Source: Desulfocapsa sp.
GTDB taxonomy: Bacteria; Desulfobacterota; Desulfobulbia; Desulfobulbales; Desulfocapsaceae
Direction: 5' to 3'
Length of the DNA stretch: 46,673 nucleotides
NCBI GenBank assembly: GCA_024763035.1
Contig: JANTGG010000010.1
Span: 1-46,673 of the forward strand
The notes beneath the pieces are model-generated. The model had not been told where the DNA came from and did no database searches. It was given only the letters and a program-made list of their open reading frames with translations. The first letter of the stretch is position 1. Each line of letters begins with the position of its first letter. Position numbers and translations under genes: made by a program. This document shows, piece after piece, positions 4,148 to 21,189 of the stretch.

Positions 4148-4188
4148 GCCCCCACACTACCACACACTCTTTTTCCCCGCAACGTCGG

Positions 4189-4216
4189 TTGACAGAACGT
4201 TCAGGCGGTTTATAAT
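4189..4216 (+). promoter_or_regulatory. Sigma-70-type promoter for the 4280 gene
   Basis: Exact consensus boxes: TTGACA at 4189-4194 and TATAAT at 4211-4216, with a 16-bp spacer. Predicted start is near 4223, giving a leader of about 57 nt. The leader holds a small hairpin (ATTCCGT 4235-4241, loop CACA, ACGGAAT 4246-4252) ending next to GGAG. Confidence 0.7.
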
Positions 4217-4279
4217 AACGTGAAATTTTGAAAAATTCCGTCACAACGGAATGGAGACCAATTCAACCAATACGACATT

Positions 4280-4672
4280 ATGGATACCGCAAAAATAGAT
4301 GCCATTTTCACCCGGGATACTTTAAGCACTCTTTTTCCAAAAGAACGAACTGATGATTTCTTTGATGCGCTCTTTGGTGATGCCAGTGAAGGGGCATACG
4401 ATATAGAACTCGCCTATGGCGGAAACAATGGTGAACAGCTGGTGATGGAACTCCACCTGCATGAGCGCCCGGGCTGCTGCCTTGCCTGCAACCTGACCCA
4501 GGGACTGCCCCAGGTTTTCAGCCGGCATCCGATCATCAATGTTTCTGGTCTGGTGAACGATATTGACGAACTACTCGGCGATGCAACAAGCTGTAAGGAA
4601 TGGAGTCTTGGCTTTACCGAACAGCGAAGCAAGGCACTGCACGTTATTCCCATAAATATTACCCTGGAATAA
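4280..4672 (+). CDS. Conserved small protein of deltaproteobacteria, function unknown
   Basis: A 130-residue soluble protein with no signal peptide or membrane segment. It has an acidic N-terminus, a motif LFPKERTDDFFDALFGD near residue 18, the pattern HLHERPGCCLACNLT near residue 60 with cysteines at CCLAC, and a C-terminal LHVIPI strand. I recall near-identical family members in sulfate reducers that carry the misleading database name pancreas/duodenum homeobox protein 1; nothing in the sequence supports a homeodomain. The Cys pair plus nearby His residues could bind a metal, but this is inference. It is a single-gene unit with its own consensus promoter (4189-4216) and a shared terminator (4703-4747). 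Confidence 0.85.
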   Translation: MDTAKIDAIFTRDTLSTLFPKERTDDFFDALFGDASEGAYDIELAYGGNNGEQLVMELHLHERPGCCLACNLTQGLPQVFSRHPIINVSGLVNDIDELLGDATSCKEWSLGFTEQRSKALHVIPINITLE

Positions 4673-4702
4673 GCCGTTCTTTCTTTTAACAAACGGATTC
4701 AC

Positions 4703-4747
4703 AAAAAAAGGGGCTCGATTCTTTAAAAGAACCGAGCCCCCTTTTTT
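4703..4747. terminator. Bidirectional intrinsic terminator
   Basis: GGGGCTCG at 4710-4717 pairs with CGAGCCCC at 4733-4740, and the stem continues after one mismatch with TTCTT/AAGAA. A-run on the left and T-run on the right give a U-tract on either strand. It lies between the convergent 4280 gene and the diguanylate cyclase and should end both. Confidence 0.9.
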
Positions 4748-4770
4748 ACTTTTCTACCTGCTATTGGGAG

Positions 4771-5784
4771 TTATGCAACACTCACCCGTGATCGGCCTTC
4801 AGCTTTAGCGTTGTAGAGAATATCGTCAACCCGTTCCATCCACTGATCCAGGCTCTCACCATTCTGCCACTGTGCCATGCCGATGGAAACACCCAGTCTG
4901 GTATCAGCATCCGCCCGGATATCAAGATCACTTACTGCCTGACAGAGTCGCTCGGCAAGGATTCTGCCGCTGTCACGATCTGTACTGTCCATGACCAGAA
5001 TAAACTCATCTCCACCGATACGGACAAGGAGGTCTGTGGTACGAACACCCTTTTTAAAGACCTCGGCGACCTGTTTTAAAACTTTATCACCCTGCTGATG
5101 TCCAAGGTTATCGTTGATCTGTTTAAAGTGATCAAGGTCAAGAGATGCCATGGTGACAGCACGGTTGTGACGCCTGGCGGCATCCATGATCTCCACGATA
5201 CGTTCATCAAAAACCCTGCGGTTGGAAAGGCCTGTGAGGGCATCCTTGCGTGCACTGTCAAACAGCTCTTCGTACTCCAGAGCCCGGCGAAGCGATTCGG
5301 CAAGAATCAGGAGTGACTCATTAATCAGATTAATCTCGTTATCGCTTAATGCCACATCATCTTTTAATATGATAAGGATACCGGAATCTTCTGCAGTCTC
5401 AATCAGCCACTTATGACCGTAGCGTCCGTCTTCACTGACGCAACAGCTGATATTCCGATCGGAATGATTAAACAGTTCTTCAGCAAAAGCCATTATGGAA
5501 CGTCTTTTAGGACCATGTCCCGAGCAGAACAGGTGTTTTTTATCACGCGACTGATTTTTATAACCAATCAATTCATGTTCAACATGGGGCATGAGCCAGA
5601 TGGAATACGCCTCAATCATGCCGGCAAGTTCAAGAACTCCTGCCATACGGGCATGCAGTTTATTCATCAGATCAAGTCGTTCTGTCTGGCGTCTGAAATG
5701 ATCCAGTTCCACCATGACCTGATCAAATTCACCGTCATGACGCCCGATTGAATTGTCTTCTTGCATGGATGTTATAATACTCAT
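4771..5784 (-). CDS. GGDEF diguanylate cyclase
   Basis: A 337-residue protein that should make cyclic-di-GMP from two GTP. The C-terminal GGDEF domain starts at DALTGLSNRR (about residue 185) and carries an intact GGDEF in RIGGDEFILV near residue 260. Five residues before it lies RTTD, the RxxD inhibitory I-site, so product feedback is expected. The N-terminal half (about residues 20-170) has no membrane segment and looks like a cytoplasmic GAF-like sensor, with scattered Cys and His; this domain call is weak. Start ATG 5784 has AGGGA eight bases upstream. It diverges from nagZ across a 670-bp regulatory region containing a 17-bp inverted repeat about 70-120 bp upstream of this start. Confidence 0.95.
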   Translation of the reverse strand: MSIITSMQEDNSIGRHDGEFDQVMVELDHFRRQTERLDLMNKLHARMAGVLELAGMIEAYSIWLMPHVEHELIGYKNQSRDKKHLFCSGHGPKRRSIMAFAEELFNHSDRNISCCVSEDGRYGHKWLIETAEDSGILIILKDDVALSDNEINLINESLLILAESLRRALEYEELFDSARKDALTGLSNRRVFDERIVEIMDAARRHNRAVTMASLDLDHFKQINDNLGHQQGDKVLKQVAEVFKKGVRTTDLLVRIGGDEFILVMDSTDRDSGRILAERLCQAVSDLDIRADADTRLGVSIGMAQWQNGESLDQWMERVDDILYNAKAEGRSRVSVA

Positions 5785-5854
5785 TATCAGTTCCCTGTAT
5801 TGGATTAATTTTCAGTTACTCTTGTATCGACTGATTGAATAAAAATATTTAGTG

Positions 5855-5902
5855 CCTTACAGATAATTTTCCTATTTTTTTTGCAGAAAATTATCTGTAA
5901 GG
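5855..5902. repeat. Perfect 17-bp inverted repeat upstream of the diguanylate cyclase
   Basis: CCTTACAGATAATTTTC at 5855-5871 is perfectly complemented at 5886-5902, with a 14-nt loop. The T-tract sits in the loop and not after the stem, so it is not an ordinary terminator. It could be a large operator or an RNA hairpin in the cyclase leader. The rest of 5785-6137 shows no gene. Confidence 0.8.
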
Positions 5903-6137
5903 TGCTCCTTCCCCAGCTGAGTACTGAAAAGAATGCCGCAGTACATACCGTTAACCGGGATGCATTTTTTTCAATCAGCCACAACTATGCAAATAATATT
6001 CCAAAAAAACACCACAAACTTCATTTTTGAATATTTTCCACAGGTTAGTATTGTGTTTTCTTGAATTTAATTACTCTGTTCAAAATTATGACATTCATGC
6101 CGCCTCCAGACAGACTCACCCCCCCGCCTCCATCCCC

Positions 6138-6179
6138 ATATTGTCATTTTTTTGACAATATTACAGTATAGCGTATAAT
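6138..6179 (+). promoter_or_regulatory. Consensus promoter with overlapping operator-like dyad for nagZ
   Basis: TTGACA at 6152-6157 and TATAAT at 6174-6179, with a 16-bp spacer, form an exact sigma-70 promoter pointing at nagZ. A perfect dyad ATATTGTCA (6138-6146) / TGACAATAT (6153-6161) overlaps the -35 box, so a dimeric regulator bound there would block RNA polymerase. Predicted transcription start is near 6186. Confidence 0.65.
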
Positions 6180-6185
6180 TCCCGA

Positions 6186-6457
6186 ACGTTAACAGTTTCA
6201 TTTTTGTTACTGTCTTTTACTCCAAAGGATGCTACAGTTTAAAAATGATGTTTCGGAATAACCGGCAAAACACAGATAAGGGCAATTCTACTGGCAGACC
6301 GGTTCGGGATATCACTCACGGAACCGGGCTCCTGCAGTTTCATCGCACGCGTATCTGATCAACAGCTGTAGCTCTGAAAATATTGCAGCCTGAACAGGTT
6401 TCCACCTCCGGGCTGAAACAAAGGCGTTAGCTGTACTGCCGCCATACAGCATGGAAA
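6186..6457 (+). other. Long structured leader upstream of nagZ
   Basis: About 270 nt of untranslated leader contains several hairpins readable by eye: CCGGTTC 6299-6305 with GAACCGG 6321-6327; a nested pair CAGCC 6386-6390 / GGCTG 6411-6415 enclosing AGGT/ACCT; and GCTGTA 6430-6435 / TACAGC 6445-6450 just before the start region. TACAGC could instead pair with an upstream GCTGTA at 6365-6370, giving two exclusive folds. A 15-codon ORF starts at ATG 6451 and overlaps the nagZ start. I recognise no known riboswitch class. Confidence 0.4.
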
Positions 6458-7549
6458 ATGCAAATATCACACAGAACGCACACTCGCATGGACATTGAAC
6501 AGCAGATAGGACAACTCTTCCTGATTGGTTTTCAAGGAACAGCAGTGACTGAAGACTCTCCCATAGTAGAAGATATCAGGCTACGAAACCTGGGCGGCGT
6601 CATTCTTTTTGACCGATTCCTTGCCGGAAAACAGCCGCAAAACAACATCATCAGTGCCTCCCAGGTTCGTTCCCTGACGCACTCACTCCAAGGGTATGCA
6701 GATTGCCCGCTGCTTATTGCGGTCGACCAGGAAGGGGGGCTCGTAAAACGTCTGAAACCTGCCGCAGGCTTTCCGGAAACAGCAAGTGCACAAACACTTG
6801 GAGACACTAATGATATCAGCCAGACCCGTATCCATGCTGCCTGTACTGCGGCGATGCTCAGTGAAGCAGGAATAAACTTCAACCTCGCACCGGTGGCTGA
6901 CCTGAACATCTATCCTGCAAACCCGGTAATCGGAGCACTTCAGCGAAGTTTTTCAAGCAGCAGTGATACCGTTATCACTCATGCCTCGCAGTGGGTTGCG
7001 GTCCACAAAAAACAAAACATCCTCTCCTGCCTGAAACATTTTCCCGGTCATGGCAGCTCGAGGACTGATTCCCATCTTGGATTTACCGATATCAGCAGCA
7101 GCTGGAACAGGGAAGAACTGCTGCCGTTTCAAAGTCTGATACGCTCAGGGCATGCCGATTCCATAATGCTTGCCCATGTTTTCCACAAAGAACTTGATCC
7201 CACATTTCCCGCAAGTCTTTCTCCGGCCGTTGTCACAACACTTTTGCGCGAACAGCTGGGATTTGATGGACTGCTGCTCACCGACGACATGCAGATGAAA
7301 GCAATCACCAATGCCTACGGTCTGGAAGAAGCTGTCTGTTTTGCCCTTGCGGCCGGGGTGGATATGATTATTGTTGGAAATAATCTGGATTATGATCCGC
7401 ACATATTACAAAAGCTGATATCAGCCGTCCTGCAGGCAGTAAAGGAAAAGAAGATCTCTGAAGAGCGGATACAGCAGGCATGGAAACGGGTACAGCTGGC
7501 AAAAGAAATGCTCAGGGGAAAGAACAATGACTTCAATGCAGCATGCTGA
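6458..7549 (+). CDS. nagZ: Beta-N-acetylhexosaminidase (glycoside hydrolase family 3)
   Basis: A 363-residue cytoplasmic enzyme of the NagZ type, which removes N-acetylglucosamine from anhydromuropeptides during peptidoglycan recycling. Visible landmarks are IGQLFLIGF near the N-terminus, DQEGG near residue 90, the conserved KHFPGHG followed by DSH at about residue 193 (the loop with the acid/base His) and LLTDDMQMKAI near residue 272 with the nucleophilic Asp. No signal peptide is seen, fitting NagZ rather than a secreted beta-glucosidase. Start could be ATG 6458 or ATG 6488; the latter fits the family N-terminus (MDIEQQIGQLF), and neither has a clear ribosome site. It overlaps the downstream TM2 gene by 23 bp. 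Confidence 0.92.
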   Translation: MQISHRTHTRMDIEQQIGQLFLIGFQGTAVTEDSPIVEDIRLRNLGGVILFDRFLAGKQPQNNIISASQVRSLTHSLQGYADCPLLIAVDQEGGLVKRLKPAAGFPETASAQTLGDTNDISQTRIHAACTAAMLSEAGINFNLAPVADLNIYPANPVIGALQRSFSSSSDTVITHASQWVAVHKKQNILSCLKHFPGHGSSRTDSHLGFTDISSSWNREELLPFQSLIRSGHADSIMLAHVFHKELDPTFPASLSPAVVTTLLREQLGFDGLLLTDDMQMKAITNAYGLEEAVCFALAAGVDMIIVGNNLDYDPHILQKLISAVLQAVKEKKISEERIQQAWKRVQLAKEMLRGKNNDFNAAC

Positions 7550-7964: not shown

Positions 7965-9002
7965 TTATTTCACCCGCTCGAATACTTCTTCAACCTTGGC
8001 ATAATTATCGAGGAACAGCTCCACAACATAGGGGTCAAAGTGAATGCCCTTCTGTTCAACTATTACCTTCCTGGCTTCCTCAAGGGGCCATGCCTCTTTG
8101 TACGGTCGTTTAGAAGAAAGAGCATCAAAGACATCACATAACGCTGCAATCCTGCCGAAAAATGGTATCTCCTCCCCCTTCAGACCAAGGGGAAATCCCG
8201 TTCCGTCCCACTTCTCATGATGGGTGAGAGCAATAAGATGGGCCATATTCATCAGCTCGTTATCAGCACCATATAAAAGATCTGCTCCGATCAGGGTGTG
8301 CCGTTTCATCTCTTCAAATTCGTCGGGCGTAAGGGTTCCCTTTTTATGCAAAATGGCATCACTGATCCCCAGCTTGCCAATATCATGCATGGCAGAAGCA
8401 TGAAAGAGCAGGGTCAGCTCATGCTCCTTGGCGCCATGTGCCCGCCCGAGGATTACGCAATAATGTGCCATTCGGGTAATATGCCGACTGGTCTGATGGT
8501 CATGGTACTCAGCCGCCTGTACCAGTCTGTTGGTGATCTCGATCTGTGTTTCCCTTAGCTCCCGTGTACGTTCAAGAACCATTTCCTCCAGCTCGTCGCG
8601 ATGTTTCTGCAACTCACGCTGGGCGACGCGCAGGGCAATATGGGTCTGCACCCTTGCCTTGACAATCACCGGGTTCACAGGCTTTATGATATAATCAACA
8701 GCGCCGAGAAGAAAGCCACGAGTTTCATCCTTCTCCTCATTCATGGCAGTTACAAAAATTACCGGAATATCAACGAAGTTTTCATCTTCCTTCAGCCTTT
8801 TACACACCTCATACCCGTCCATATCAGGCATCATAACATCAAGCAGAATCAGATCGGGCTTCTTTTCGTGGACTGCTTTAAGGGCATCAGGACCATTGGT
8901 TGCAACAATAAGCTGATAGCTTTCGCGCAGTGTCCCCACTAGAATTTTTATATTTGCAGGGATATCATCGACAAGAAGGATGGTGTTACGCTCTTTGTTC
9001 AC
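7965..9002 (-). CDS. Response regulator with HD-GYP phosphodiesterase domain
   Basis: A 345-residue RpfG-like protein. Residues about 5-122 form a receiver with the phospho-acceptor Asp in LILLDVMMPDMDG and the Lys in YIIKPVN. A coiled-coil linker (about 125-165) leads into an HD-GYP domain with HASAMHDIGKLGI and HHEKWDGTGFP, expected to hydrolyse cyclic-di-GMP. The canonical GYP reads GFP here, a conservative change. The start is GTG 9002: its GTG overlaps the stop of the hybrid kinase (GTGA), with GGGGAG upstream, so the two are translationally coupled. It is the probable output of the kinase encoded immediately upstream. Confidence 0.95.
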   Translation of the reverse strand: MNKERNTILLVDDIPANIKILVGTLRESYQLIVATNGPDALKAVHEKKPDLILLDVMMPDMDGYEVCKRLKEDENFVDIPVIFVTAMNEEKDETRGFLLGAVDYIIKPVNPVIVKARVQTHIALRVAQRELQKHRDELEEMVLERTRELRETQIEITNRLVQAAEYHDHQTSRHITRMAHYCVILGRAHGAKEHELTLLFHASAMHDIGKLGISDAILHKKGTLTPDEFEEMKRHTLIGADLLYGADNELMNMAHLIALTHHEKWDGTGFPLGLKGEEIPFFGRIAALCDVFDALSSKRPYKEAWPLEEARKVIVEQKGIHFDPYVVELFLDNYAKVEEVFERVK

Positions 9003-12000
9003 GCGGTATTCTCCCCTTTCATAATTTGACGGCGAATCCTTCGCAGAAAATCAGAAACACGCTCAAAATTATAGTTGCGCAGTTGATTTTCCATACGCAC
9101 CATCTCCTCGTCAATACCTTCAGCTGAAAAAAGTGCTTTTTTCTCGAGCCAGTACTCTTCAGCGACCGGATCGTACTCTTCCACCATCTTCTTCAGTTCA
9201 TCGAGCACTTCAATCAACTCTTCAGTAGTGGCTTCAGAGACAATTTGCGCCGTATTCCCGGCAATCATATTCTCACAGATCTCCTCGAGTTGTTTCATAC
9301 TTTCTGCGAGCTGGACAAGGGCAGTCGCCACCGAATCCAGGTACTCATCCTGGACAGACATCAGGCCGATGTCTGTTTCTCCCTGTGAGTTTATCATTTC
9401 CTTGATTGCCAGTTCAAATTTCACACTGATATCCTGCAGCTGGTAGGCTGAAAGATTTGCAGCAGATCCTTTCAGGGTATGAATCTCGCGTGCCGCCGCC
9501 TGCAGATCCTCACGAATCAGAGCGGGCATTTTTGCAACGACTTCATTACCAAAACTGTGCAGATCCTGCAGCATCCGTACATAGGAGTTCAGATTTCCTG
9601 CCATCCGGGCAACACCGGATTCCACATGGATGCCCGGCAAGGTATCAGGGTAATCATGCTTGCCCTCGCTTCCAGTAATTGCCGACAAACCGTTACGCCG
9701 CATGGTTTCCATATGCTCAGGTCTGGTCCAGCGGGTGAGCACAGAAAACAGGAGCTCGGGTGTAATGGGTTTTGCCACATAATCATTCATGCCTGCCTGC
9801 AGACATTTATCCCTGTCACCCTGCATGGCATGGGCGGTAACTGCAATAACGGGGATTTCGTTTAACACCGGATTGGCACGAATAACTTTTGTCGCCTCAT
9901 ACCCGTCCATAACGGGCATCTGCACATCCATCAGCACTCCATCAAATTCATCACCACGATCCTGCAGAATATGAACGGCCTCTTCTCCGTTATTCGCCAC
10001 CTCGACAATAATCCCGACACTCTCGAGCAATTCCCTTGCAACATTCTGATTGATTCTGTTGTCTTCTGCAAGAAGAATACGCACACCTGCCAGATGGTCA
10101 GAACTGACAAGACTTCGGATATTTTCTTCCCGCTCTTCAAGGCTTGCGTGCATCGCCTCGGGATGATTGAAAATCTCCATAATGGTATCGAAGAGCAGAG
10201 ACTGCTTCACAGGTTTGGTCAAAAAGTAGTCCACTCCCACTTCACGTGCCATCACCATTTCCCGATCACCACCAAACGCTGTCATCATAATAATGGGGAT
10301 CTCATCGGCACCTTCCAGCTGACGGAACTTCCGCACACACTCAATACCATCCACCTCCGGCATCCGCCAGTCCACCAGGAAGAAATCGTAACGACTGAAG
10401 TCTCCCTGCAGCAGTTGGTTTGCCTCCTCACAAGAAGACACCACATCAATTTCAAAGTGGAAGGATTCGAGCATCTTGGTGGTGATACATCGGGCCGTGG
10501 CATTATCATCTATGACCAGTCCCCTCAGCCCCCTGATGGTTGCCGGGACAAGGTATTGGATTTCACGGTCTTCCGGCTGTCTGGAAAATTCTGCAGTAAA
10601 GAAAACCGTTGTTCCCTTGCCCGGCTTGCTGTCCACCCAGATCTCTCCGCCGTGCAGATTCACCAGGCGGCGGCAGATTGAAAGTCCGAGACCTGTGCCG
10701 CCGTATTCCCGTGTGGTGGAACCGTCTGCCTGGGTAAAAGGATCAAAAAGGGTTTTATACTGTTCCTCCCGGATACCAACTCCCGTATCACTGATGGAAA
10801 AGAGAATACGGATGCTGTCATCAGTTTCCGAATCGATGGTAGCATGGACAAAGATTTCGCCATGTTCGGTAAATTTAATAGCATTGCCCAGAAGATTAAT
10901 AAACACCTGTTCAAGACGAAGCGGATCGCCGAGAAGTGCTCCGGGAATACCGGGTTCGCAGGCGATAACAAGTTCTATATTTCTTGCTGCAGCTTGGTCA
11001 CTGAAAAGATCTGCGAGCTTATCAAAGAGCTGCGGCAGATGAAAACCAACGTTTTCAATACGGATCTTTCCAGCTTCGATCTTGGAGAAGTCAAGGATAT
11101 CATTAATAATTGCCAGCAGAGATTCGGCAGAAGAGCGAACCGTCAGCAGGTACTCCCGCAGCTTGGGACTCAGTTTTTTATTGAGAGCCAAGCCAACCAT
11201 TCCAATAATGGCATTCATCGGGGTGCGGATCTCATGGCTCATATTGGCAAGGAAACTGGACTTGGCATCATTGGCAGTCTGTGCCTCCACCATTGCCCGT
11301 TTCAGTTTTTCAGTCCGTTCCCGTACCAGATCATGCAGGGAATCGTTGAGATCACGCAGTTCGGAATCCCGTTCCCGCACGGCAATGCGCATGGCTTCAA
11401 ACGCCGACGCCAGCTTACCGATCTCGTCCCCGGAATCCACACTGACCTGATGGCTGAAATCACCATTTTTCATGGCATCAGCAGCCGTTACCAGATCTTC
11501 AACTTTTTTTGCCCACCTGCCGATCAATTGATAAATAAGAAAAATCCCCAGCCCCACCGCAAGACATGCGGCAAAGAGTGATACCAGTGACTGTTTAAAC
11601 TGTGCCCGCCGCACTGCTTCACTGGACAGAGCAACCAACACCTTACCCACTTCGTCTTTTGAGATATCACTATCGGCAGGAACGGTCCATTCATTTTCCA
11701 GCTCATTTGCCCGGAAATAAATGGGGTGGGAAACAACCAGAGAGCCGGCAAAAGTGTCATTTAAGGAAAAAGCTGCAAAGGCAGTCTCGTCCAGTATACG
11801 CTTTGCCACGATTTCATTCTTCTCATTAAAAATAAGAAGAAACTGCACCTGGGTATTCCACAGGAAACCGCCAAGCAGCCGGTCAAGCTCCTGATTATCC
11901 TGAACAATCATGGGAAGCTCTGCCGCCTGTGCAAGTCCCTGCACAATGGCCTCACCCGCCCGTTTCTGCTCGGAGGCAATCAGGTTGTTTGTCTGAAAGA

Positions 12001-12133
12001 TATTAATTACGGTGGCAAGACTCAGACTGACAAGAACAACAAAGATAATAAGAAGCGTGGCCTTACCGCGAAGGGAGATTTTCTGGTAGTTAAGAATGGT
12101 TTTGTACCGCTTATCTGAGATTCCCGATAACAC
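8999..12133 (-). CDS. Hybrid sensor histidine kinase (HAMP-HisKA-HATPase-REC-REC-Hpt)
   Basis: About 1045 residues. An N-terminal membrane helix, a periplasmic sensor segment (about residues 45-180), a second helix and HAMP are followed by HisKA (SHEIRTPMNAIIGM), an ATPase domain (N-box LGNAIKF, FDPFTQADGSTTREYGGTG), a first receiver (Asp in FFLVDWRMPEVDG), a second receiver (Asp in GVLMDVQMPVMDG) and a C-terminal Hpt (IHTLKGSAANL). This is a phosphorelay of the BarA/TorS type in the inner membrane. No ATG fits the N-terminus: candidates are GTG 12133 (used here) and TTG 12148, both overlapping the 3' end of the binding-protein gene. Gene order makes the upstream periplasmic binding protein its likely sensory partner and HD-GYP its likely target. 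Confidence 0.93.
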   Translation of the reverse strand: MLSGISDKRYKTILNYQKISLRGKATLLIIFVVLVSLSLATVINIFQTNNLIASEQKRAGEAIVQGLAQAAELPMIVQDNQELDRLLGGFLWNTQVQFLLIFNEKNEIVAKRILDETAFAAFSLNDTFAGSLVVSHPIYFRANELENEWTVPADSDISKDEVGKVLVALSSEAVRRAQFKQSLVSLFAACLAVGLGIFLIYQLIGRWAKKVEDLVTAADAMKNGDFSHQVSVDSGDEIGKLASAFEAMRIAVRERDSELRDLNDSLHDLVRERTEKLKRAMVEAQTANDAKSSFLANMSHEIRTPMNAIIGMVGLALNKKLSPKLREYLLTVRSSAESLLAIINDILDFSKIEAGKIRIENVGFHLPQLFDKLADLFSDQAAARNIELVIACEPGIPGALLGDPLRLEQVFINLLGNAIKFTEHGEIFVHATIDSETDDSIRILFSISDTGVGIREEQYKTLFDPFTQADGSTTREYGGTGLGLSICRRLVNLHGGEIWVDSKPGKGTTVFFTAEFSRQPEDREIQYLVPATIRGLRGLVIDDNATARCITTKMLESFHFEIDVVSSCEEANQLLQGDFSRYDFFLVDWRMPEVDGIECVRKFRQLEGADEIPIIMMTAFGGDREMVMAREVGVDYFLTKPVKQSLLFDTIMEIFNHPEAMHASLEEREENIRSLVSSDHLAGVRILLAEDNRINQNVARELLESVGIIVEVANNGEEAVHILQDRGDEFDGVLMDVQMPVMDGYEATKVIRANPVLNEIPVIAVTAHAMQGDRDKCLQAGMNDYVAKPITPELLFSVLTRWTRPEHMETMRRNGLSAITGSEGKHDYPDTLPGIHVESGVARMAGNLNSYVRMLQDLHSFGNEVVAKMPALIREDLQAAAREIHTLKGSAANLSAYQLQDISVKFELAIKEMINSQGETDIGLMSVQDEYLDSVATALVQLAESMKQLEEICENMIAGNTAQIVSEATTEELIEVLDELKKMVEEYDPVAEEYWLEKKALFSAEGIDEEMVRMENQLRNYNFERVSDFLRRIRRQIMKGENTA

Positions 12134-13082
12134 GGGCCTGTTGCACAACTGCGGCAGGAAGGGAGATCCCCAGCCTGTCGGCGACTATCATATTCACGGC
12201 AAGGTTTACACCTGCCATCTCCGCCTTCTTGGGCTTATTCGGATGGCCAAATACCTGCTGCACAAGTGCTGCTGCATACTCTCCCTGCAGAGCCGGGTCT
12301 GCCTCAAGACCAAGAAGTGCCCCGGCCTTCACAAAAGATCCCGAGAACCCGAAAACCGGCGTATTATTCCGCAAAGAGGCAAGGAGAAGGGCCTTCACCG
12401 TACTGCGGTTATATACCGACGAATCCGCCGCGGTCCAGATCAGATCGACCTGCTGATTGAAGAGTTTCTGGATTGCCTTTGCCATGGAACCGGAGGCATC
12501 AATGTTGATTGCCTGCAGCCGCCACCCTTCCGGCAACTGCTCCTGCACTTCGACAAGGGAACGTACACTTTTAGGAGATGTGGAACGATAAAGCATACCG
12601 ATTGTTTTCAAATCCGGCAAGGCCTGTCTGATCAGGGAGAATTGCTCGTTGACCGGCAGCGTAATGGAAACTCCCGCCACATTATCCAGCCTGCCTTTTA
12701 AACCGATCAACTCCGGTTTTGCAACCATACAGTATACCAGAGGGGTCTTCCCTGCCAGGGTGGAGTTCAGGACGTCGGCTGCCCGTGAGCCGATGGCCAC
12801 CCAAACGACCTTGCTTGTTCCGGAAACAGGTGCCGGCAAGCCATCCTTTATGGCATCAAGGGTGAAGGACTGGATGAGAACCGATTGTTTTTTCAGCATA
12901 TTGGTCAGGGCATCGGCAGCCGTCACATACGGACCGGCACCTGAGCTGACAACCACACGGACTATGTTCTGCCCTGCACTACAGTTCAATAGTGAAAAAA
13001 AGAAAAGGAAACAGCAGCACAACGAGATCAGCCCCGCCCGCTTCAGTGGATTCTTTTTCTTCTTCTGCATTGGTCTCATCAT
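12111..13082 (-). CDS. ABC-type periplasmic substrate-binding protein (ABC_sub_bind/TrpX-like)
   Basis: A 323-residue exported protein: a Lys-rich start, then a hydrophobic stretch around residues 15-35 ending near SLLNCSAG (a poor lipobox, so either a lipoprotein or cleaved signal). The mature part has the two-lobe pattern of the ABC_sub_bind family, with VWVAIGSRAADVL, LVYCMVA, GVSITLPVNEQ, TIGMLYRSTSPKS and a C-terminal AGVNLAVNMIVADRLG. No permease or ATPase is encoded with it. Instead it lies 13 bp after a TonB receptor and overlaps a hybrid kinase, which suggests a sensory accessory role rather than transport. Start ATG 13082; an ATG at 13070 is possible. Confidence 0.88.
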   Translation of the reverse strand: MMRPMQKKKKNPLKRAGLISLCCCFLFFFSLLNCSAGQNIVRVVVSSGAGPYVTAADALTNMLKKQSVLIQSFTLDAIKDGLPAPVSGTSKVVWVAIGSRAADVLNSTLAGKTPLVYCMVAKPELIGLKGRLDNVAGVSITLPVNEQFSLIRQALPDLKTIGMLYRSTSPKSVRSLVEVQEQLPEGWRLQAINIDASGSMAKAIQKLFNQQVDLIWTAADSSVYNRSTVKALLLASLRNNTPVFGFSGSFVKAGALLGLEADPALQGEYAAALVQQVFGHPNKPKKAEMAGVNLAVNMIVADRLGISLPAAVVQQARVIGNLR

Positions 13083-13095
13083 ATCAGAAATGGGC

Positions 13096-15105
13096 TTAAA
13101 ACCTGAACTGCATCCGGCAGAAAAATGTCCTGCCCGGGGTCACAGTATTATCCGAAACTTCTGTCTCATTAACGGCATCATGATCCTCTTCAAGCAGATC
13201 CATCACCCCGATCATCATTTCACCTTTCCCTGCAAACAAACTTCTGGTGACTGTCAAATCAAGTTGATTTACCGGATCAACACTGCTCCCGCCGACATCT
13301 TCATAGACGATGTCAGAATAGGCGTACTGCCCGTTAATCGTCCAGTTGCTGTCAACAAACCAACGCAGTTTCACACCGACTTTATTTTTTGCCGGCAGAA
13401 AAGAGCGTATGGACTGATTCTCATATTCCGTCTCAAATTCATTGTAGGCATACCAGACACTTCCCAGTACAGGACCGGAGCTGTATTCGAGTTCCAGCTC
13501 ACAGCCGTATCCCTCAGCATCCCCTGTATTGTCGACAAAGAGCTTCAGCAGGGGCACTCCGCCGACGGTTCCATCCATCTCGCCGCGAGCGCCGATGAGA
13601 TCCTTGTACCACATATAGTACAGATTTCCCTTAAATTGAAGGGAATCTCGAATTTTCCAGTTATATCCACTCTCTGCCGACCATGCCTGCTCGGATTTCA
13701 TATCAGGATCAACTGAAAAACTCAACCTGAAACCATCTGTACTTCCTGAGAAAATAGCATTTCTGATAAAACCGATGGGCTGTCTGTATGATTTTGCAGC
13801 ACTGAAGCGCAGCACATGCTTCATCCCGGTATCCAGACCGTAGAGTGATGTGAGCCTGCCGGACCAATCGGTATCACCTTCCGAGAAATAATCTCCGCGC
13901 AGCTGTATTTCAAAGAAGAGCTGTTCATCAAACTGATAGCGATCACTGCCGAACAGCCCGAACCAGTTCTCCCTGCTGTATTCATCGGAAAGGGTGAAAA
14001 CGCCATCTTCTTCCGGACGTGAGGAAATCGAGGTGGTCTTTACATTCCCCCCCACAACAAGAGAGTGATGTTCAACTCCTGCGATATCCACCTGCCCCTC
14101 AATATCATGCTCATCCAGCTGATATCTTGCCCCGCCATAGGACGGGCGATCCATATCCTGATATCGTCCGGCATACCTGAGATACGCAGACGTCCCGGAG
14201 TTAAATTCCTTTTCAGCACGCAGATAGCCGTTCACCGAACTCATATCATTTTCATTCTCTACGAATACACCCTCGGTGGCAAAGGCACCGTCATCGGTCT
14301 GAGTTGTTCCTGCGCCCATCACCAGTTTGATATCAGAGTCTGTACGATATGTCAGTTCGCCCCGGGCAAGGGCCTGTCTCTGATAATCACGGTTGGTGGA
14401 ATTCTCTTCAAGATCAAGGGCATCGGCGGATGATTTAGTCTCATTATACCCGGTGGAAAGCAGCCAGCTCCAGTTGCCGGCAGTGTCGGCATAACGGAGC
14501 TGTGAAGATGAATCTCCATATTCACTGATGGTACTTGTGGCAAACAGCCCGGTTACATCTTCTGGTTTCTTGGTAATGATATTAATTACACCGGAAAGGG
14601 CATTGGCACCCCAGGCTGCACCACCAGGGCCGCGGACAATCTCAATACGGTCGATATCTTCCATCATTACAGCGATTGAAGAAAACTCGGGTCCGCCAAA
14701 TGCGGCACTGTCTGCGGGCATACCGTCAACCAGCGTCATCATCCGGTCTGAGAATGTTCCCTGCAGACCACGGATTCCGACACCATAACGTGTCCTGCTC
14801 ACCTGCATGACATCAACACCTGGAGCATACCGGAGAGCGGCTGAGATAGATGTATGACCTCCGTAATGAAGATCGTCTGACTTTAAGACACTGACGGGGA
14901 CAGAAAGAAGATTGGCAGGCTGTTTCTGTCTGGAGGCGGAGACCACCAGATCCATATCCTGAAAAAGGAGCAGTTCGTCAACCTCGCTGAAATCCTCGGG
15001 GATCTCGGCACAGGAAAACGATGCAGATAGAAGAAGTGCAACAAGGGAAGGAACGACGACCTTTCCCTTTACACACTGATTAAGAAGGCGACCCAGGCAG
15101 ATCAT
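13096..15105 (-). CDS. TonB-dependent outer-membrane receptor
   Basis: A 669-residue receptor. A signal peptide (residues about 10-33, ending SFSCAE) precedes a TonB-box-like region (MDLVVSASR), a plug domain (SVLKSDDL through SGVINIITKKPEDV, including RGLQGTFSDRM and IEIVRGPGGAAWG) and a 22-strand-type barrel ending in the C-terminal FRF, an aromatic outer-membrane insertion signal. The ligand cannot be read from the sequence: there is no nearby siderophore or cobalamin gene. The leader carries a terminator-like hairpin (15134-15164). It heads a same-strand run with a binding protein, hybrid kinase and HD-GYP regulator. Ribosome site GGAGG lies just upstream of ATG 15105. Confidence 0.95.
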   Translation of the reverse strand: MICLGRLLNQCVKGKVVVPSLVALLLSASFSCAEIPEDFSEVDELLLFQDMDLVVSASRQKQPANLLSVPVSVLKSDDLHYGGHTSISAALRYAPGVDVMQVSRTRYGVGIRGLQGTFSDRMMTLVDGMPADSAAFGGPEFSSIAVMMEDIDRIEIVRGPGGAAWGANALSGVINIITKKPEDVTGLFATSTISEYGDSSSQLRYADTAGNWSWLLSTGYNETKSSADALDLEENSTNRDYQRQALARGELTYRTDSDIKLVMGAGTTQTDDGAFATEGVFVENENDMSSVNGYLRAEKEFNSGTSAYLRYAGRYQDMDRPSYGGARYQLDEHDIEGQVDIAGVEHHSLVVGGNVKTTSISSRPEEDGVFTLSDEYSRENWFGLFGSDRYQFDEQLFFEIQLRGDYFSEGDTDWSGRLTSLYGLDTGMKHVLRFSAAKSYRQPIGFIRNAIFSGSTDGFRLSFSVDPDMKSEQAWSAESGYNWKIRDSLQFKGNLYYMWYKDLIGARGEMDGTVGGVPLLKLFVDNTGDAEGYGCELELEYSSGPVLGSVWYAYNEFETEYENQSIRSFLPAKNKVGVKLRWFVDSNWTINGQYAYSDIVYEDVGGSSVDPVNQLDLTVTRSLFAGKGEMMIGVMDLLEEDHDAVNETEVSDNTVTPGRTFFCRMQFRF

Positions 15106-15743: not shown

Positions 15744-16253
15744 ATGGACACCCCGGATCAAAAAGCCTCCCGGCTCATTCCCGTTCTTCGTGAAGGAGTG
15801 GCGGTAATTCAGATGATTTTTTTTAAAGAACTCAAAGCGGTCATTGAGAAAAAACATCCTGACAAAGATGCTACCACACGAACAATGCTCACGGGTGCTG
15901 TCACCAATGAGTTGTTCGGTACACAGAATCAGGAAACAAAATTCCAGGATTTTTGCCGAAAACATCGGGGAGAAATCGAACAGGAGATGATAAGCCTCTC
16001 TCAGGAACTCGCAGAATTTACTCCATTTCTTGCCGATGCCCTGCGCATCCAGACGCTGTGCGACCATCAGGAGGGATTACACTCCGAAGAGGTTTTAAAA
16101 CTTGCCGAAAGCTGTCGCCTCCTCCCAAAGGATCGTGAATTGCCGCTGCCTTCAAGCTTTATGGCCACGGTTCGTGAGCTTGGCAAAAAGCACAAGCTGT
16201 TAATTCCTCCCGTTGAGATCAATCAAGAGGAGGAGCAGACACTGCTTCAGTAA
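15744..16253 (+). CDS. Conserved hypothetical protein
   Basis: A 169-residue soluble, charged, mostly helical protein that I do not recognise. It has no signal peptide, membrane segment or obvious catalytic motif; a short MLTGAVTNELFG element near residue 48 and two Cys residues near residues 87 and 105 are the only landmarks. AAGGA lies eight bases before ATG 15744, supporting translation. It is 22 bp downstream of the DUF493 gene and about 100 bp upstream of the BMP-type binding protein, so it may be co-transcribed with either. Confidence 0.75.
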   Translation: MDTPDQKASRLIPVLREGVAVIQMIFFKELKAVIEKKHPDKDATTRTMLTGAVTNELFGTQNQETKFQDFCRKHRGEIEQEMISLSQELAEFTPFLADALRIQTLCDHQEGLHSEEVLKLAESCRLLPKDRELPLPSSFMATVRELGKKHKLLIPPVEINQEEEQTLLQ

Positions 16254-16352: not shown

Positions 16353-17537
16353 ATGAAACACACTGTAACAGGAACAGCATTGGTATTTTTTGCCGCTCTG
16401 GCACTGCTCTTTCTGCCGGACCATGGACACGCCTCGGAGAAAGGATTTACTTTCGGACTGCTCATGGTCGGCCCTGCCAACGATCACGGATGGAGTCAGG
16501 CTCACTTTGAGGCGGGCAAGGCCATCGAAGAACGAATCCCCGGTACCAGGATGATCTATATCGATAAAGTCAATCCTGCAGACAGACCGGGCGTCACGGT
16601 CCCTTTTCTGGTGGACGACCTGATCTCCAAGGGTGCAAAACTGATTATCGGCAACTCTGATGATATGACCGACGGTATTATGGAAGCGGCAATGCTGCAC
16701 CCGGAAGTCAAATTTGTCCATATCTCTGGTGACTCCGCTCTTGATCCCGACTCTCCGGAAAACCTCGCAAACCTCATGGGACGAATGGAATACGGACAGA
16801 TGATGGCGGGATTTGCAGCGGCAATGAGCAGCAAAACAGGGAAAATTGGCTACCTTGGTCCTCTCATCAACGATGAAACAAAACGCCTTGCTGCCTCCTG
16901 CTACCTTGGTGCCCGTTATGCCTGGACCCGGATCTTGAAAAAAGATCCCGCGGCCCTCACCTTTAAAGTTTCCTGGATAGGATTCTGGTTTAATATCCCT
17001 GGTGTAACCTCCGATCCGACTCAGGTTGCCAAGAATTTCTTCGACTCCGGCTTCGATGTGGTTATTTCCGGAATTGACACCACAGAAGCACTGATCGTTG
17101 CCGACCAGAAGAAGAAGGAAGGGGCTGATGTCGCCGCAATTCCCTACGATTTTCAGGGAGCCTGCAAAACTGCACCCGATGCCTGTCTCGGCGTCCCCTA
17201 TTTCAACTGGATTCCCGGCTATACATATTATATCAAGGCTGCTGTGTCCAACAAATGGAAGAAAGAATGGATCTGGCTCGGTCCCGACTGGAGCAGCATG
17301 GACGACACAGACACCTCTTCCATCAACTTTCTAAATGGTGCTGCACTCTCTGGTGATGCCTCGGATGCGCTGTCCAGCTTTGTCAAAGGGCTGGGTGACA
17401 AATCCATAGTCCTCTTTCAGGGACCGCTTAACTTTCAGGACCACAGCGTCTTCTTAAAAACAGGAGAGACTGCCACTGATCAACAGATCTGGAATCTTCC
17501 CCAGCTTCTTGAAGGTATGGAAGGAACGTCCAGATAA
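16353..17537 (+). CDS. BMP-family (PnrA/Med-like) ABC substrate-binding protein
   Basis: A 394-residue exported binding protein. A signal peptide (residues 1-27, ending GHAS) precedes the BMP fold: FGLLMVGPANDHGWSQAHFEAG near residue 33, AKLIIGNSDD, VKFVHISGD, a GRMEYGQMMAGFAA segment and KIGYLGP. BMP proteins bind nucleosides or related small molecules for uptake. The ribosome site AAGGAG lies about ten bases before ATG 16353. It is the first gene of a complete importer with a two-domain ATPase and two permeases; a REP-like element sits in the 190-bp gap before the ATPase gene and may lower downstream expression relative to the binding protein. Confidence 0.93.
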   Translation: MKHTVTGTALVFFAALALLFLPDHGHASEKGFTFGLLMVGPANDHGWSQAHFEAGKAIEERIPGTRMIYIDKVNPADRPGVTVPFLVDDLISKGAKLIIGNSDDMTDGIMEAAMLHPEVKFVHISGDSALDPDSPENLANLMGRMEYGQMMAGFAAAMSSKTGKIGYLGPLINDETKRLAASCYLGARYAWTRILKKDPAALTFKVSWIGFWFNIPGVTSDPTQVAKNFFDSGFDVVISGIDTTEALIVADQKKKEGADVAAIPYDFQGACKTAPDACLGVPYFNWIPGYTYYIKAAVSNKWKKEWIWLGPDWSSMDDTDTSSINFLNGAALSGDASDALSSFVKGLGDKSIVLFQGPLNFQDHSVFLKTGETATDQQIWNLPQLLEGMEGTSR

Positions 17538-17558
17538 GCCCGGTACTGTACAGTAAAA

Positions 17559-17617
17559 GGCCCCCGCAAGCGACCTTTTCTATCACTGATCGCCTGCAGG
17601 GGCAAGTTCCCCTGTAC
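17559..17617. repeat. REP-like palindromic element, copy B
   Basis: CCCCCGCAAGCGA at 17561-17573 pairs with TCGCCTGCAGGGG at 17590-17602 (11 of 13 positions) around a 16-nt loop, followed by CAAGTTCCCCTGTAC. The right arm and tail match copy A (1-63) at 17 of 21 positions, all four differences being transitions. It lies inside the BMP transporter operon, between binding protein and ATPase genes, a classic place for REPs that stabilise upstream mRNA. Confidence 0.6.
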
Positions 17618-17728
17618 TTTATATGTTCCAGTTTTTTTAACACCTGCATTTCCATCCCGGGCGAGTAGCGTTACCCTATCATTCTGACATCACTGTAACA
17701 CCACAATCCAAAGTCTCCACTCCCCTTC

Positions 17729-19189
17729 ATGGACGTAGAATTCAAACATATAGGTAAACGCTTCGGGGCGGTACAGGCACTCAAGGATATCAATCTCAGA
17801 GCGATATCCGGTTCCATTCACGGACTGATCGGGGAAAACGGAGCGGGAAAATCCACTCTTATGAAAATCCTTACCGGCTATCAGTCCCGAAGTGAAGGTG
17901 CGATTTTCATAGACGGCAGCAGGGTGGAACTCAAGTCCCCTGAAGAGGCCGCCGACCTTGGTATCGGAATGCTCTACCAGGAACCCATGGATTTCCCCTC
18001 GCTCACGGTTCTTGACAATTTTTCCCTTGGCTGCCCGCCACAGTCTGAAAGCCATCTGCGGAGATCACTGCTTGAACTTTCCACACGATTTGCTTTTCAC
18101 CTTGTCCCTGAACAAATGGTGGAACTCCTCACCGTAGGGGAACGACAGCAGATCGAGCTGCTGCGCCTGATCCATTGCAAAACCCGTATTCTCATACTTG
18201 ATGAACCTACCACAGGAATTTCTCCTGCCCAGAAGGAGGCTCTTTTCCCGGTTTTGAAACAGTTGACCGAAGAGGGCATGACAATCCTCCTCGTCTCTCA
18301 CAAACTCGAGGAGGTAGCTGCTCTCTGCAATGAGGTCACTGTATTGCGGCACGGACGCATCACCCACCACACCAAAGCACCTTTTCATTTTCCAGAGCTG
18401 CTGCACGCCATGTTCGGCTCAATTCCAGAACATGACGACAAGGAAGCACCACGAGACACCGGAGATGTGGTGTTGTCTTTTCATACCGTTGAAGCCGAAG
18501 GGGAACGACTGGGGCTGCACGGCTGCACGCTAAACGTTCGTGCCGGAGAAATAATCGGTCTTGCCGGACTCGATGGTGCCGGGCAATCCACACTGTTGCG
18601 TCTTGCCGCGGGTCTTACTTTTCCTGAGCAGGGAGACGTGACACTCTTTGGCTCCGTCCTTCCCCGTAACAGCAGTGCCAGTCATATTGCTCAGCGGCAG
18701 CAAACGGCTTTTCTGCCGGCAGACAGACTTGAGGAGGCACTGTTTCATGACATCAGCCTCAGTGAGCATTTCAGCTTGAAAGAACACAACCCGCCGTTTC
18801 TGCAATCCGGGAAAAAGAGCTGCAGGCAGGCAGAAAAAGACATCGCCACCTTTTCCATTAAGGGAAAGGCAGAAGACATGGCAAAGGATCTCTCCGGTGG
18901 CAATCAGCAACGCCTGCTCCTGGCACTGCTCGATCCAGAATCCCGGCTTGTTCTTCTTGAAAACCCCACAAGGGGACTGGATATCCGGTCTGGTCAATGG
19001 GTGTGGCAGTACCTGCGAAATGAGCTTCCTCCCGACACCGCCATTCTTTTTTCGTCACCGGAGCTTGACGAGATTCTGCATTACAGCAACCGTATCCTTG
19101 TTTTCCATGATGGTGAGATTGTCCTTGATAGCGACGTACACAACACCAATCACGATGCCGTCGCAGCCGCCATGACAGGGGTACAGTGA
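17729..19189 (+). CDS. ABC importer ATPase with two nucleotide-binding domains
   Basis: A 486-residue ATPase of the sugar/nucleoside type (NupO/YufO-like). Domain 1 has Walker A GENGAGKST near residue 36, Q-loop MLYQEP, signature LTVGERQQ and Walker B ILILDEPTTG. Domain 2 has Walker A GLDGAGQST, with Gln in place of Lys, signature DLSGGNQQR and LENPTRGLD. A degenerate second Walker A is usual in this family, so the gene is not broken. It energises the two permeases that follow at once (19193 and 20206). The start ATG 17729 has no evident ribosome site; the gene follows the binding protein after a REP-containing gap. Confidence 0.93.
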   Translation: MDVEFKHIGKRFGAVQALKDINLRAISGSIHGLIGENGAGKSTLMKILTGYQSRSEGAIFIDGSRVELKSPEEAADLGIGMLYQEPMDFPSLTVLDNFSLGCPPQSESHLRRSLLELSTRFAFHLVPEQMVELLTVGERQQIELLRLIHCKTRILILDEPTTGISPAQKEALFPVLKQLTEEGMTILLVSHKLEEVAALCNEVTVLRHGRITHHTKAPFHFPELLHAMFGSIPEHDDKEAPRDTGDVVLSFHTVEAEGERLGLHGCTLNVRAGEIIGLAGLDGAGQSTLLRLAAGLTFPEQGDVTLFGSVLPRNSSASHIAQRQQTAFLPADRLEEALFHDISLSEHFSLKEHNPPFLQSGKKSCRQAEKDIATFSIKGKAEDMAKDLSGGNQQRLLLALLDPESRLVLLENPTRGLDIRSGQWVWQYLRNELPPDTAILFSSPELDEILHYSNRILVFHDGEIVLDSDVHNTNHDAVAAAMTGVQ

Positions 19190-19192
19190 AGT

Positions 19193-20209
19193 ATGAAGCA
19201 ACTAAGTGCAGACATAGTTCTCGGCATCCTGCTGGTGCTCACCTTCACCTCCCTTGTACTCCTCGCAGCAGGTGCACCGGTCTTTGCCGCTTTTCAAAAC
19301 ATCTGGCTGGGTTCGTTTGGCTCCTCCATGAAAATCGGGCAGGTGCTGAATGTCTGTATTCCCCTGATTATCTGTTCCTGTGGCCTACTATTCACCTTCC
19401 GGGCAAATCTCTGGAATATCGGTATTGAAGGACAGATCATCATGGGTGCCATCGGTGGTATGGCGGTGCTCCGTATGGACAGTATAAGCAACCCCACCCT
19501 TCTTCTCCCCCTTGCCTTTATTGCTGCAATGGTAACGGGCGGACTGTGGGGACTGCTGGCGGGACTGCTGAAGACGCGGGGCGGGGTCCACGAGATCTTC
19601 GGTGGCCTGGGGCTGAACTTTGTTTCCCAGGGCTTTATACTCTGGCTTATTTTCGGCCCCTGGAAACGTCCGGGAATTGCCTCCATGAGCGGTACAGAGC
19701 TTCTAAAACACAAACTCTGGCTCTCCACACTGCCCGGATGGCGAATCGCCATTGCAGGACTTGTTATCGCAGGCATTGTCTTCCTTCTCACCTGGCTGCT
19801 GCTCGAAAAAAGCAGGCTCGGTCTGAAACTAAAAGCAATCGGTCAAAACCCGCGTGCCGCTCTGCTTTACGACATTTCTCCGGAGGGCTATTATCTTCTC
19901 TCCATTGCACTTGCCGGAGCCTGTGCCGGTATGGCAGGTTTCTTACAGATTACTGCTGTATATCACAGACTGATCCCAAACATCTCCAGTGGATATGGCT
20001 ACCTCGGACTGCTCCTGGTCATGCTTGCAGGCTATCGAATCGGTCCACTTCCCCTGCTTGCTCTCTTTTTTGCCGGTTTAAATGTTGGAGCGATTCAGCT
20101 CCCCATTGTGCTGCAGCTTGACTCTGCTCTTTCAGGTGTCATTCAAGGGTGTTGCGTACTCAGCGCCCTCTTTATTCTGGGACTTGAAAAAAAGAGGCGG
20201 CAGAAATGA
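19193..20209 (+). CDS. BMP-type ABC transporter permease 1
   Basis: A 338-residue inner-membrane protein of the branched-chain/nucleoside permease class (BPD_transp_2), with about nine to ten hydrophobic helices. The TFRANLWNIGIEGQIIMGAIGG segment near residue 65 is the typical permease landmark (N-G-EGQ pattern), and KAIGQNPRAALLYDIS near residue 212 is the coupling-helix EAA-like loop. It starts three bases after the ATPase stop and shares an ATGA overlap with the second permease, so the operon is translationally tight. Confidence 0.93.
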   Translation: MKQLSADIVLGILLVLTFTSLVLLAAGAPVFAAFQNIWLGSFGSSMKIGQVLNVCIPLIICSCGLLFTFRANLWNIGIEGQIIMGAIGGMAVLRMDSISNPTLLLPLAFIAAMVTGGLWGLLAGLLKTRGGVHEIFGGLGLNFVSQGFILWLIFGPWKRPGIASMSGTELLKHKLWLSTLPGWRIAIAGLVIAGIVFLLTWLLLEKSRLGLKLKAIGQNPRAALLYDISPEGYYLLSIALAGACAGMAGFLQITAVYHRLIPNISSGYGYLGLLLVMLAGYRIGPLPLLALFFAGLNVGAIQLPIVLQLDSALSGVIQGCCVLSALFILGLEKKRRQK

Positions 20210-21189
20210 TTGCAGATCTGCCCGTTTCAGTATTGATTGCCTCTGTCCTTGCGGCCAGTGCGCCGCTTATCATAATTGCCCTTGGTGAGACTCTCACCGA
20301 AAAGAGCGGAGTGATCAATCTTTCCCTGGACGGTGTTGTTCTCTTTTCCGCCATGGCAGCCTTTGCTGCAGCAAAAGAAACTGGCTCACTCGGTGCCGGT
20401 TTTCTGGCTGGCGGATGTGCAGGAATGATCACGGGGCTTATCGTCGGGTATCTCAGTATCTACCTGCATCTGTCCCAGGTGGCAGTGGGCTTTGCCCTCT
20501 CTCTGCTCTGCCGGGATCTTGCCTATTTCCTCGGCAATCCCTACAGTCGCATTCAGGGCCCGACCCTGCTTGCTGCCAGGCTGCCATTTCACGACACTCT
20601 GCCATCCTTTTTGCAAAATATCCTCAGCCAGCCGCTTACAGTGCCTGCCGCACTCACACTAATCGCTCTGCTCTGGTATTTCTTCAACGCCACACGATCA
20701 GGACTTGCCCTGCGTTCTGTTGGTGAAAATCCGGCGGCTGCTTTTGCAAGAGGTCTTAATCCAAACAAAGTGCAGATGCTTGCTGTCCTTGCAGGATCAT
20801 TTCTGGTCGGGCTGGGAGGAGCGGCATATTCTCTCTCCCTGAAACCCGGCTGGGGACGTCCGCAGGGTGCGGAAGGTATCGGCTGGATCGCCCTTGCCCT
20901 TGTAATATTCGGGGGCTGGCATCCATTGCGGGTGGCACTTGGGGCGATGCTTTTTGCCTTTTTACAGGTGAGCGGAATCAGTCTCCAGAATATCTTTCCG
21001 AGCATTCCTGCCCAGGTCTTCCAGACAGCACCTTTCCCGCTGATGATCTTCACACTGATCTTTATGCACTACTCCACTCGAAAAAGCAGAATCAGTACCA
21101 AACCAGCGAACAGACTGCAGAGACGCCTGGGACTTCTGTTTATGTCAAGGGCCCCAAAATCTCTTGGAAAAAGTTACCAGCAGGAATAA
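20206..21189 (+). CDS. BMP-type ABC transporter permease 2
   Basis: A 327-residue membrane protein, the second permease of the importer. It shows TLTEKSGVINLSLDGVVLF near residue 30 (the family ESGVxNLGxEG position), the loop RSVGENPAAAFARGLN near residue 165 and about nine helices. It overlaps permease 1 by four bases (ATGA) with GAGG upstream. It is the last gene of the operon and converges on the pabB-pabC gene with only 32 bp between stops; I see no intrinsic terminator there. Confidence 0.93.
   Translation: MIADLPVSVLIASVLAASAPLIIIALGETLTEKSGVINLSLDGVVLFSAMAAFAAAKETGSLGAGFLAGGCAGMITGLIVGYLSIYLHLSQVAVGFALSLLCRDLAYFLGNPYSRIQGPTLLAARLPFHDTLPSFLQNILSQPLTVPAALTLIALLWYFFNATRSGLALRSVGENPAAAFARGLNPNKVQMLAVLAGSFLVGLGGAAYSLSLKPGWGRPQGAEGIGWIALALVIFGGWHPLRVALGAMLFAFLQVSGISLQNIFPSIPAQVFQTAPFPLMIFTLIFMHYSTRKSRISTKPANRLQRRLGLLFMSRAPKSLGKSYQQE

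Follow-up and report, generated by a model that had tools for sequence, protein, structure and literature searches.

What does an ABC-type substrate-binding protein (SBP) do when its gene sits, with no ABC permease or ATPase in the run, between the genes of an outer-membrane receptor and a hybrid histidine kinase? The question is raised by four minus-strand genes in the stretch of DNA analyzed here (the window; 46,673 nucleotides of contig JANTGG010000010.1 from Desulfocapsa sp.), which belongs to a 3.3-Mb draft genome of 209 contigs that is 92% complete (G000; G numbers denote genomes and L numbers the loci compared with the window). They encode, in order, a TonB receptor, an SBP, a hybrid kinase and a receiver-HD-GYP protein. 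We think it probable that this run specifies an SBP-gated phosphorelay of the GacS/BarA type, with a front end that is wired to other outputs in other lineages.

The TonB-dependent outer-membrane receptor (669 aa, 13096..15105; Pfam Plug, 1.4e-17) is separated by a 13-bp gap from the lone SBP (323 aa, 12111..13082; ABC_sub_bind PF04392, 2.7e-20). The SBP gene in turn overlaps that of the hybrid kinase (1049 aa, 8999..12148; HAMP, HisKA, HATPase_c, two Response_reg domains and Hpt) by 38 bp if the kinase starts at a TTG and by 23 bp if it starts at a GTG at residue 6; where the kinase really starts is uncertain, as alignments with relatives begin at about residues 15–25 and that with L003, from a Desulfocapsa sp. 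metagenome-assembled genome, at about residue 17. A 4-bp overlap (GTGA) joins the kinase gene to that of a response regulator with an HD-GYP phosphodiesterase domain (345 aa, 7965..9002; Response_reg and HD_5). A first-pass annotation made from the sequence alone had described this run of four same-strand genes, and its positions, gap and overlaps are all correct on the minus strand; the domains it listed were all matched in Pfam, and the run indeed holds no ABC permease or ATPase. It did not mention a complete BMP-type ABC importer about 1.2 kb away, which is considered below.

The kinase detector and its place behind binding proteins

By hydropathy, the kinase has transmembrane (TM) helices at residues 30–48 and 187–205 on either side of a periplasmic segment (residues 49–186), and these are followed by HAMP, HisKA, HATPase, two receivers (REC) and Hpt, with phosphorelay motifs present that include His305 and Hpt His890. 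The periplasmic segment contains an sCache_4 domain (11591..12004), the detector type of GacS and BarA, which scores 28.0 bits in isolation against a cut-off of 22.1; the full protein scores 21.2, slightly under it. This layout is common to the kinases encoded directly behind an SBP, 45 of 48 of which have two TM helices around a loop of 136–173 aa. At E 0.01, sCache_4 is matched by 22 of 41 full-length kinases (that of the window, 2 of its 10 orthologues and all 38 others) and by 31 of 37 isolated loops (those of the window, of 4 of the 10 orthologues and of 32 among the 37 others, leaving out L051, L054, L059, L068 and L123).

The loops of the orthologues and those of the distant kinases are homologous when compared as profiles (hhalign 97.3%, E 1.8e-11). 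When each distant loop is compared on its own with the profile of the orthologues, 10 of 37 score E < 0.01, as against none of seven two-TM kinases that do not lie behind an SBP; the kinases of L045 and L055 follow an SBP on inspection and were not counted among these seven controls. A profile of the 37 loops finds a single significant structure match, PDB 5o7j (labelled histidine kinase; 1.6e-8), and 5O7J is a structure named in the available text of a paper on the GacS detector (PMC5595915).

Within the order, the domain also keeps to one genomic position. Across 56 genomes of the order, all 28 sCache_4 matches, a set that includes nine orthologues of the window kinase, lie on the same strand as an SBP match and 123–261 bp behind it, where chance would give about 0.00015 per place, but to the cost of our interpretation the 28 of 28 is bound to the threshold, because the kinases of G006 and G018, which lack an SBP, fell below it.

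The likeness to GacS, BarA and LetS extends to the whole protein, as each has sCache_4 between two TM helices and then HAMP-HisKA-HATPase-REC and Hpt, and BarA is the best NCBIfam match of the window kinase (518.5 bits, below the equivalog (PRK11107) cut-off of 890). GacS/BarA has one receiver, and GacA/UvrY is a LuxR-type regulator, whereas the window kinase carries two receivers, is directly preceded by an SBP gene and has an HD-GYP output. SBP-gated kinases are known from LuxP-LuxQ and TorT-TorS, which the run resembles in that a binding-protein gene adjoins that of a hybrid kinase with a periplasmic domain. It differs from them in its PF04392 (TrpX-like) SBP, its sCache_4 detector and the TonB receptor in the run, and the kinase scores under the cut-offs for TorS (448.8 of 676.5) and LuxQ (346.7 of 1200). 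FecA-FecR-FecI, a system of cell-surface signaling via a TonB-dependent transducer, likewise has a TonB receptor next to signaling genes; the window receptor, however, has Plug as its only recognized domain, and its run contains an SBP and a kinase and no FecR or ECF sigma gene.

Plug, from residue 69, is the sole recognized domain of the receptor, and a Pfam scan found no N-terminal signaling domain ahead of it. Its nearest PDB relatives by sequence are BtuB and the colicin I receptor, and it scores 176.7 bits against the NCBIfam TOL_0244 family, under the cut-off of 645. The SBP has one N-terminal hydrophobic segment (residues 16–34), likely a signal peptide. It matches PDB 3lkv (7e-16) and 3lft (2e-11) and scores 86.6 bits against the TrpX equivalog of NCBIfam, whose cut-off of 390 is not reached; this kinship weakly suggests an aromatic compound as its ligand.

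In the mechanism that we propose, a ligand that passes porins poorly would enter through the TonB receptor and be bound by the permease-less SBP, and the loaded SBP would dock on the sCache_4 detector and alter its geometry. Phosphate would then pass from His305 through the receivers to Hpt His890 and on to the receiver domain in the HD-GYP protein. The phosphodiesterase activity of that protein would shift, and with it the level of cyclic di-GMP (c-di-GMP). We regard the step from SBP to kinase as likely, and give even weight to the receptor supplying the ligand or not.

Recurrence and the two branches of the binding-protein family

Within the genus, an SBP orthologue (E 1e-30 or better) occurs in 12 of 20 genomes; the 36 other genomes have none. 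A kinase adjoins it in all 12, this kinase is followed by an HD-GYP gene in 11 (the contig of G019 ends first), and the receptor is upstream in nine of the ten genomes with a contig long enough, two of the nine being cut by contig ends. Identity to the window proteins decreases from the inside outward and is 83–88% for HD-GYP, 63–78% for the kinase, 53–67% for the receptor and 41–65% for the SBP. HD-GYP orthologues match at E 1e-100 in 14 of the 20 genomes.

Beyond the genus, we analyzed 93 stretches around SBP matches from the order and from an even sample of the phylum, which gave 88 distinct SBPs, 77 of them non-orthologous to that of the window. The order supplied 39 of its 94 other SBP matches, mostly the best-scoring, plus the second SBP of the window genome; the phylum sample supplied all 56 of its other matches, in 53 stretches. 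No SBP row came from L045, L055, L098, L106, L117 or L131 (contig-end piece, overlapping open reading frame (ORF) or profile miss), and the SBP of L091 is a duplicate; ORFs of the stretches without an SBP row were kept as controls, so that any error from this would make the control rate higher, never lower. The ORF that follows on the same strand encodes a kinase for 38 of the 77 other SBPs, and 29 have both such a kinase and a TonB receptor within three ORFs. With a 200-bp limit, a kinase lies directly downstream of 37 of the 77 SBPs; among the control ORFs of these stretches the count is 8 of 313 (odds ratio 35, Fisher 1e-22), and a receptor is within three ORFs of 40 of the 77 as against near 36 of the 313 (p = 2e-13). 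The expectation that the gene order would be conserved in relatives thus held up in two ways: the order is kept in the genus, and other families of the phylum have receptor-SBP-kinase groups too.

Outside the phylum, a plasmid collection searched for the module yielded 12 SBP records, of which the two examined, both from Salinivibrio, are SBP-permease-ATPase operons, and no match there to the sensor domain. The receptor matched 2723 plasmid records; four were examined, two of them unannotated and two without a listed SBP gene; in one of the latter two, a hybrid kinase is encoded at a distance of about 3 kb. We found no description of the arrangement in the open-licence PMC literature, as judged by titles and the starts of abstracts.

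Is the SBP nonetheless half of an importer whose permease is encoded elsewhere? As the permease family, PF06541 proved to be the wrong partner; transport-type PF04392 SBPs instead neighbor a TrpY-type permease of about 300 aa. Such a permease is next to 11 of the 77 other SBPs (fused to it in L119), or to 12 when L124 is included, which was counted by eye because a spurious short ORF intervenes between its SBP and permease. These 12 all lack both a kinase immediately downstream and a nearby receptor. In a tree of the SBPs, which left out four shorter than 240 or longer than 420 aa, all 11 TrpY-labelled SBPs fall in one 14-row clade (support 95/88), while the 67-row clade that holds the window SBP (97/79, slightly below the mark for strong support) contains no TrpY-linked SBP. 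Because both the neighbor classes and the tree separate, the PF04392 SBPs studied here appear to form, for the most part, two branches, one for transport and one associated with sensors and receptors.

The window SBP is of the same Pfam family as the SBPs of TrpXYZ importers, but it falls in a separate clade and has no TrpY-type permease or ATPase beside it. A TrpY query likewise found no match in the window's draft genome, while 24 of the 56 searched genomes match, so that the ABC partner elsewhere in the genome that would have told against the first-pass reading did not turn up in this search. The query also found no match in three further genomes that bear the cassette, G001 (98% complete), G016 and G019.

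Several other SBP genes have unusual forms or partners. One further PF04392 SBP, and no more, turned up in the window genome (contig C65; L073:1451-4424); it is followed by a kinase and has no TonB receptor or TrpY permease nearby. Long ORFs with two to four tandem PF04392 matches are present among the matches listed, at G236:C17:60475-64053 and, with about 940–1004 aa, in G226, G131, G060, G150, G096, G171 and G069. The tandem-PF04392 ORF L119:943-3804 matches the TrpY permease profile too, which suggests that ORFs of this type are multi-SBP-permease fusions. In L146, a phosphonate-type SBP (PF12974; 3681-4643) has an sCache_4 kinase directly behind it, and the detector type may thus pair with a second SBP family.

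Weighing the alternatives

A number of findings weigh against the proposed SBP-gated phosphorelay. Across the phylum the link is looser than in the order, with at least 19 of 48 sCache_4 matches (window included) adjoining a PF04392 SBP; this comprises at least 13 by the match list and six among the 20 examined of the other 35 loci, of which L149 gave no ORF. Three kinase-linked SBPs (L054, L123 and L073) lie outside the 67-row clade. Outputs vary, and an HD-GYP protein recurs at just one of the 77 other SBP loci (L099). Flanking genes are syntenic within the genus, so that gene order there is weak evidence, and even there the set is not constant: G011 keeps only a piece of the receptor gene with a stop, G004 has HD-GYP without the other three genes, and G006 and G018 keep an open kinase gene (1035 aa) and HD-GYP without receptor and SBP, G018 retaining a 64-residue piece of the latter. 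The sensor domains of G006 and G018 share 91% identity, and their dN of 0.050 against a dS of 0.57 indicates purifying selection; relaxed selection on the sensor after loss of the SBP was sought in this pair and not seen. Since the sensor is still constrained, the kinase may need no SBP for sensing or may use a different one. This result is the strongest against an obligatory four-part machine, although it is possible that an SBP from elsewhere serves the kinase, as G006 and G018 each hold a second receptor-SBP-kinase cassette (L049, L053). The first-pass picture of one complete four-part sensor is not supported: HD-GYP is rarely part of the group at other loci, two genomes have kinase and HD-GYP alone, and one has HD-GYP alone. 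Finally, adjacency of SBP and kinase is not proof of a functional link: three SBPs are encoded near the Pseudomonas kinases AgtS and AruS, and the available text of the report on them gives no evidence that they activate these kinases (PMC11113362).

Could the kinase then be an ordinary sensor? On this account it would be a BarA/GacS-type sensor of a small molecule or of the envelope, and the SBP and receptor would be a scavenging pair that it regulates or merely adjoins. The Pseudomonas case, the persistence of kinase and HD-GYP with a conserved sensor domain in two SBP-less genomes, and the control genomes, where E. coli has sCache_4 matches and no PF04392 match, all speak for it. Against it stand the position of all 28 sCache_4 matches in the order directly behind an SBP and an SBP with no TrpY-type permease in the draft genome. 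The GacS detector itself provides a further point: in the available text of the 2017 paper, its signal is called unknown and the candidate small molecules that were tested did not bind. The same text identifies Arg94-His97 of GacS as the counterpart of the ligand-anchoring pair of CitA/DcuS, reports that biofilm formation needs His97 and not Arg94 and that Arg94 is not conserved in Pseudomonas, and gives the authors' proposal of another ligand site (PMC5595915). Among the SBP-linked domains, none of 37 has an Arg-His pair of the CitA/DcuS type at these positions, which were counted by hand on the alignment; the window has Ile and Lys. The absence of the pair fits a detector that reads a protein, but does not show it, and the argument from a CitA-type pocket is weaker than it appears, because Arg94 is dispensable and unconserved even in GacS and the ligand site is placed elsewhere. 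On balance we consider an ordinary sensor unlikely.

A second alternative is that the SBP feeds the BMP-type importer, in which case the cluster would be an uptake system with a two-component regulator. The importer (16353-21189, plus strand) is complete, with an SBP, a tandem ATPase and two permeases, and is divergent from the cassette. It lies beside the cassette in the window, L037, L041, L043 and L044, and its start is visible in L034 and L036 before the contigs end. However, it comes with a BMP-type SBP of its own, from a different family; in the neighborhood examined in G002 (L035) it does not lie beside the cassette; and most SBP-kinase pairs examined elsewhere show no ABC ATPase nearby. 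We therefore hold this alternative to be improbable.

That the four genes are a chance run fixed by local synteny, as the conservation of flanking genes with the cassette in the genus would allow, is largely refuted by the enrichment of kinases and receptors over control ORFs and is very hard to credit, given that receptor-SBP-kinase groups are also found elsewhere, other families included, and that for at least 27 of the 82 SBP matches that are not orthologues a receptor match lies no more than 10 kb away.

Output, neighboring genes and meaning

The SBP-gated phosphorelay would end, in the window, at the HD-GYP protein. Like RpfG, which consists of a receiver and an HD-GYP domain, it joins these two domains, and its best PDB match is PmGH (4mcw, 3e-54). 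The catalytic motifs are intact (HDIGK at 206 and HHEKWDGTGFP at 261), with both the HD and HHE elements, and phosphodiesterase activity is likely. It departs from PmGH in that GYP reads GFP and in that the Glu that binds the third metal, which we take to correspond to Gln170 of the window protein, is replaced; at this presumed position Gln is found in the window and in eight of the nine orthologues shown, and Leu in one. Phosphotransfer from the kinase to this protein is reasonably probable. That ligand binding would give a fall in c-di-GMP, as the first-pass annotation proposed, and not a rise, is a guess at the sign that we hold with less than even confidence.

At other loci the scanned outputs of SBP-kinase pairs include an NtrC-like regulator (L144), a PAS-LuxR protein (L046) and receiver-only regulators (L047, L050). 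In L099 (G177, from another family of the phylum; 2734-7199), an SBP, a 163-aa ORF, a HAMP-GAF kinase and a REC-GAF-HD-GYP protein are encoded on one strand, and thus form an independent SBP-kinase-HD-GYP run, with no receptor up to the contig end. The sensor part may there lie in the 163-aa ORF, because the kinase ORF begins just ahead of HAMP. In several relatives of the window (L035, L037, L039, L041, L158–L161) a second hybrid kinase, absent in the window, is encoded behind HD-GYP, and PAS was found in all three of these that were scanned; the HD-GYP protein may answer to two kinases there.

Other features of the window surround the cassette. A 169-aa protein outside known families (15744..16253, plus strand) is encoded divergently from the receptor gene; it and three relatives have no Pfam matches up to E 5. 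Its gene adjoins the cassette in relatives, being present in L034–L037, L041, L043, L044 and L158–L160, and it persists in G004 though receptor, SBP and kinase are gone. A GGDEF diguanylate cyclase (4771-5784, minus strand) is separated from HD-GYP by two genes, and its gene is in the same neighborhood in L035, L037, L043 and L160. A riboswitch that might hint at the ligand was sought, and the window contains no Rfam match at gathering score. A promoter and terminator scan gave results near shuffle level (15 against a mean of 10.7, sd 3.7, and 10 against 8.8, sd 2.9, respectively).

The occurrence of sCache_4 behind a permease-less SBP across an order provides a concrete and cheap hypothesis for the signal of GacS, namely that it is a protein ligand. 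In its broadest form, which we put forward as a speculation with the odds against it, sCache_4 detectors would be docking sites for ligand-loaded SBPs and not, or not only, small-molecule pockets; Desulfobacterota would still encode the SBP and receptor beside the kinase, while lone GacS/BarA kinases would use SBPs in trans or have lost them. If SBPs do gate the kinases beside them, the TonB receptor, lone SBP and sCache_4 kinase would make up a recurrent sensory module that reaches from the outer membrane to the cytoplasm and has interchangeable outputs, of which c-di-GMP breakdown would probably be one. The similar sets in related bacteria hint at how the poorly understood sensors of the GacS/BarA type may be switched.

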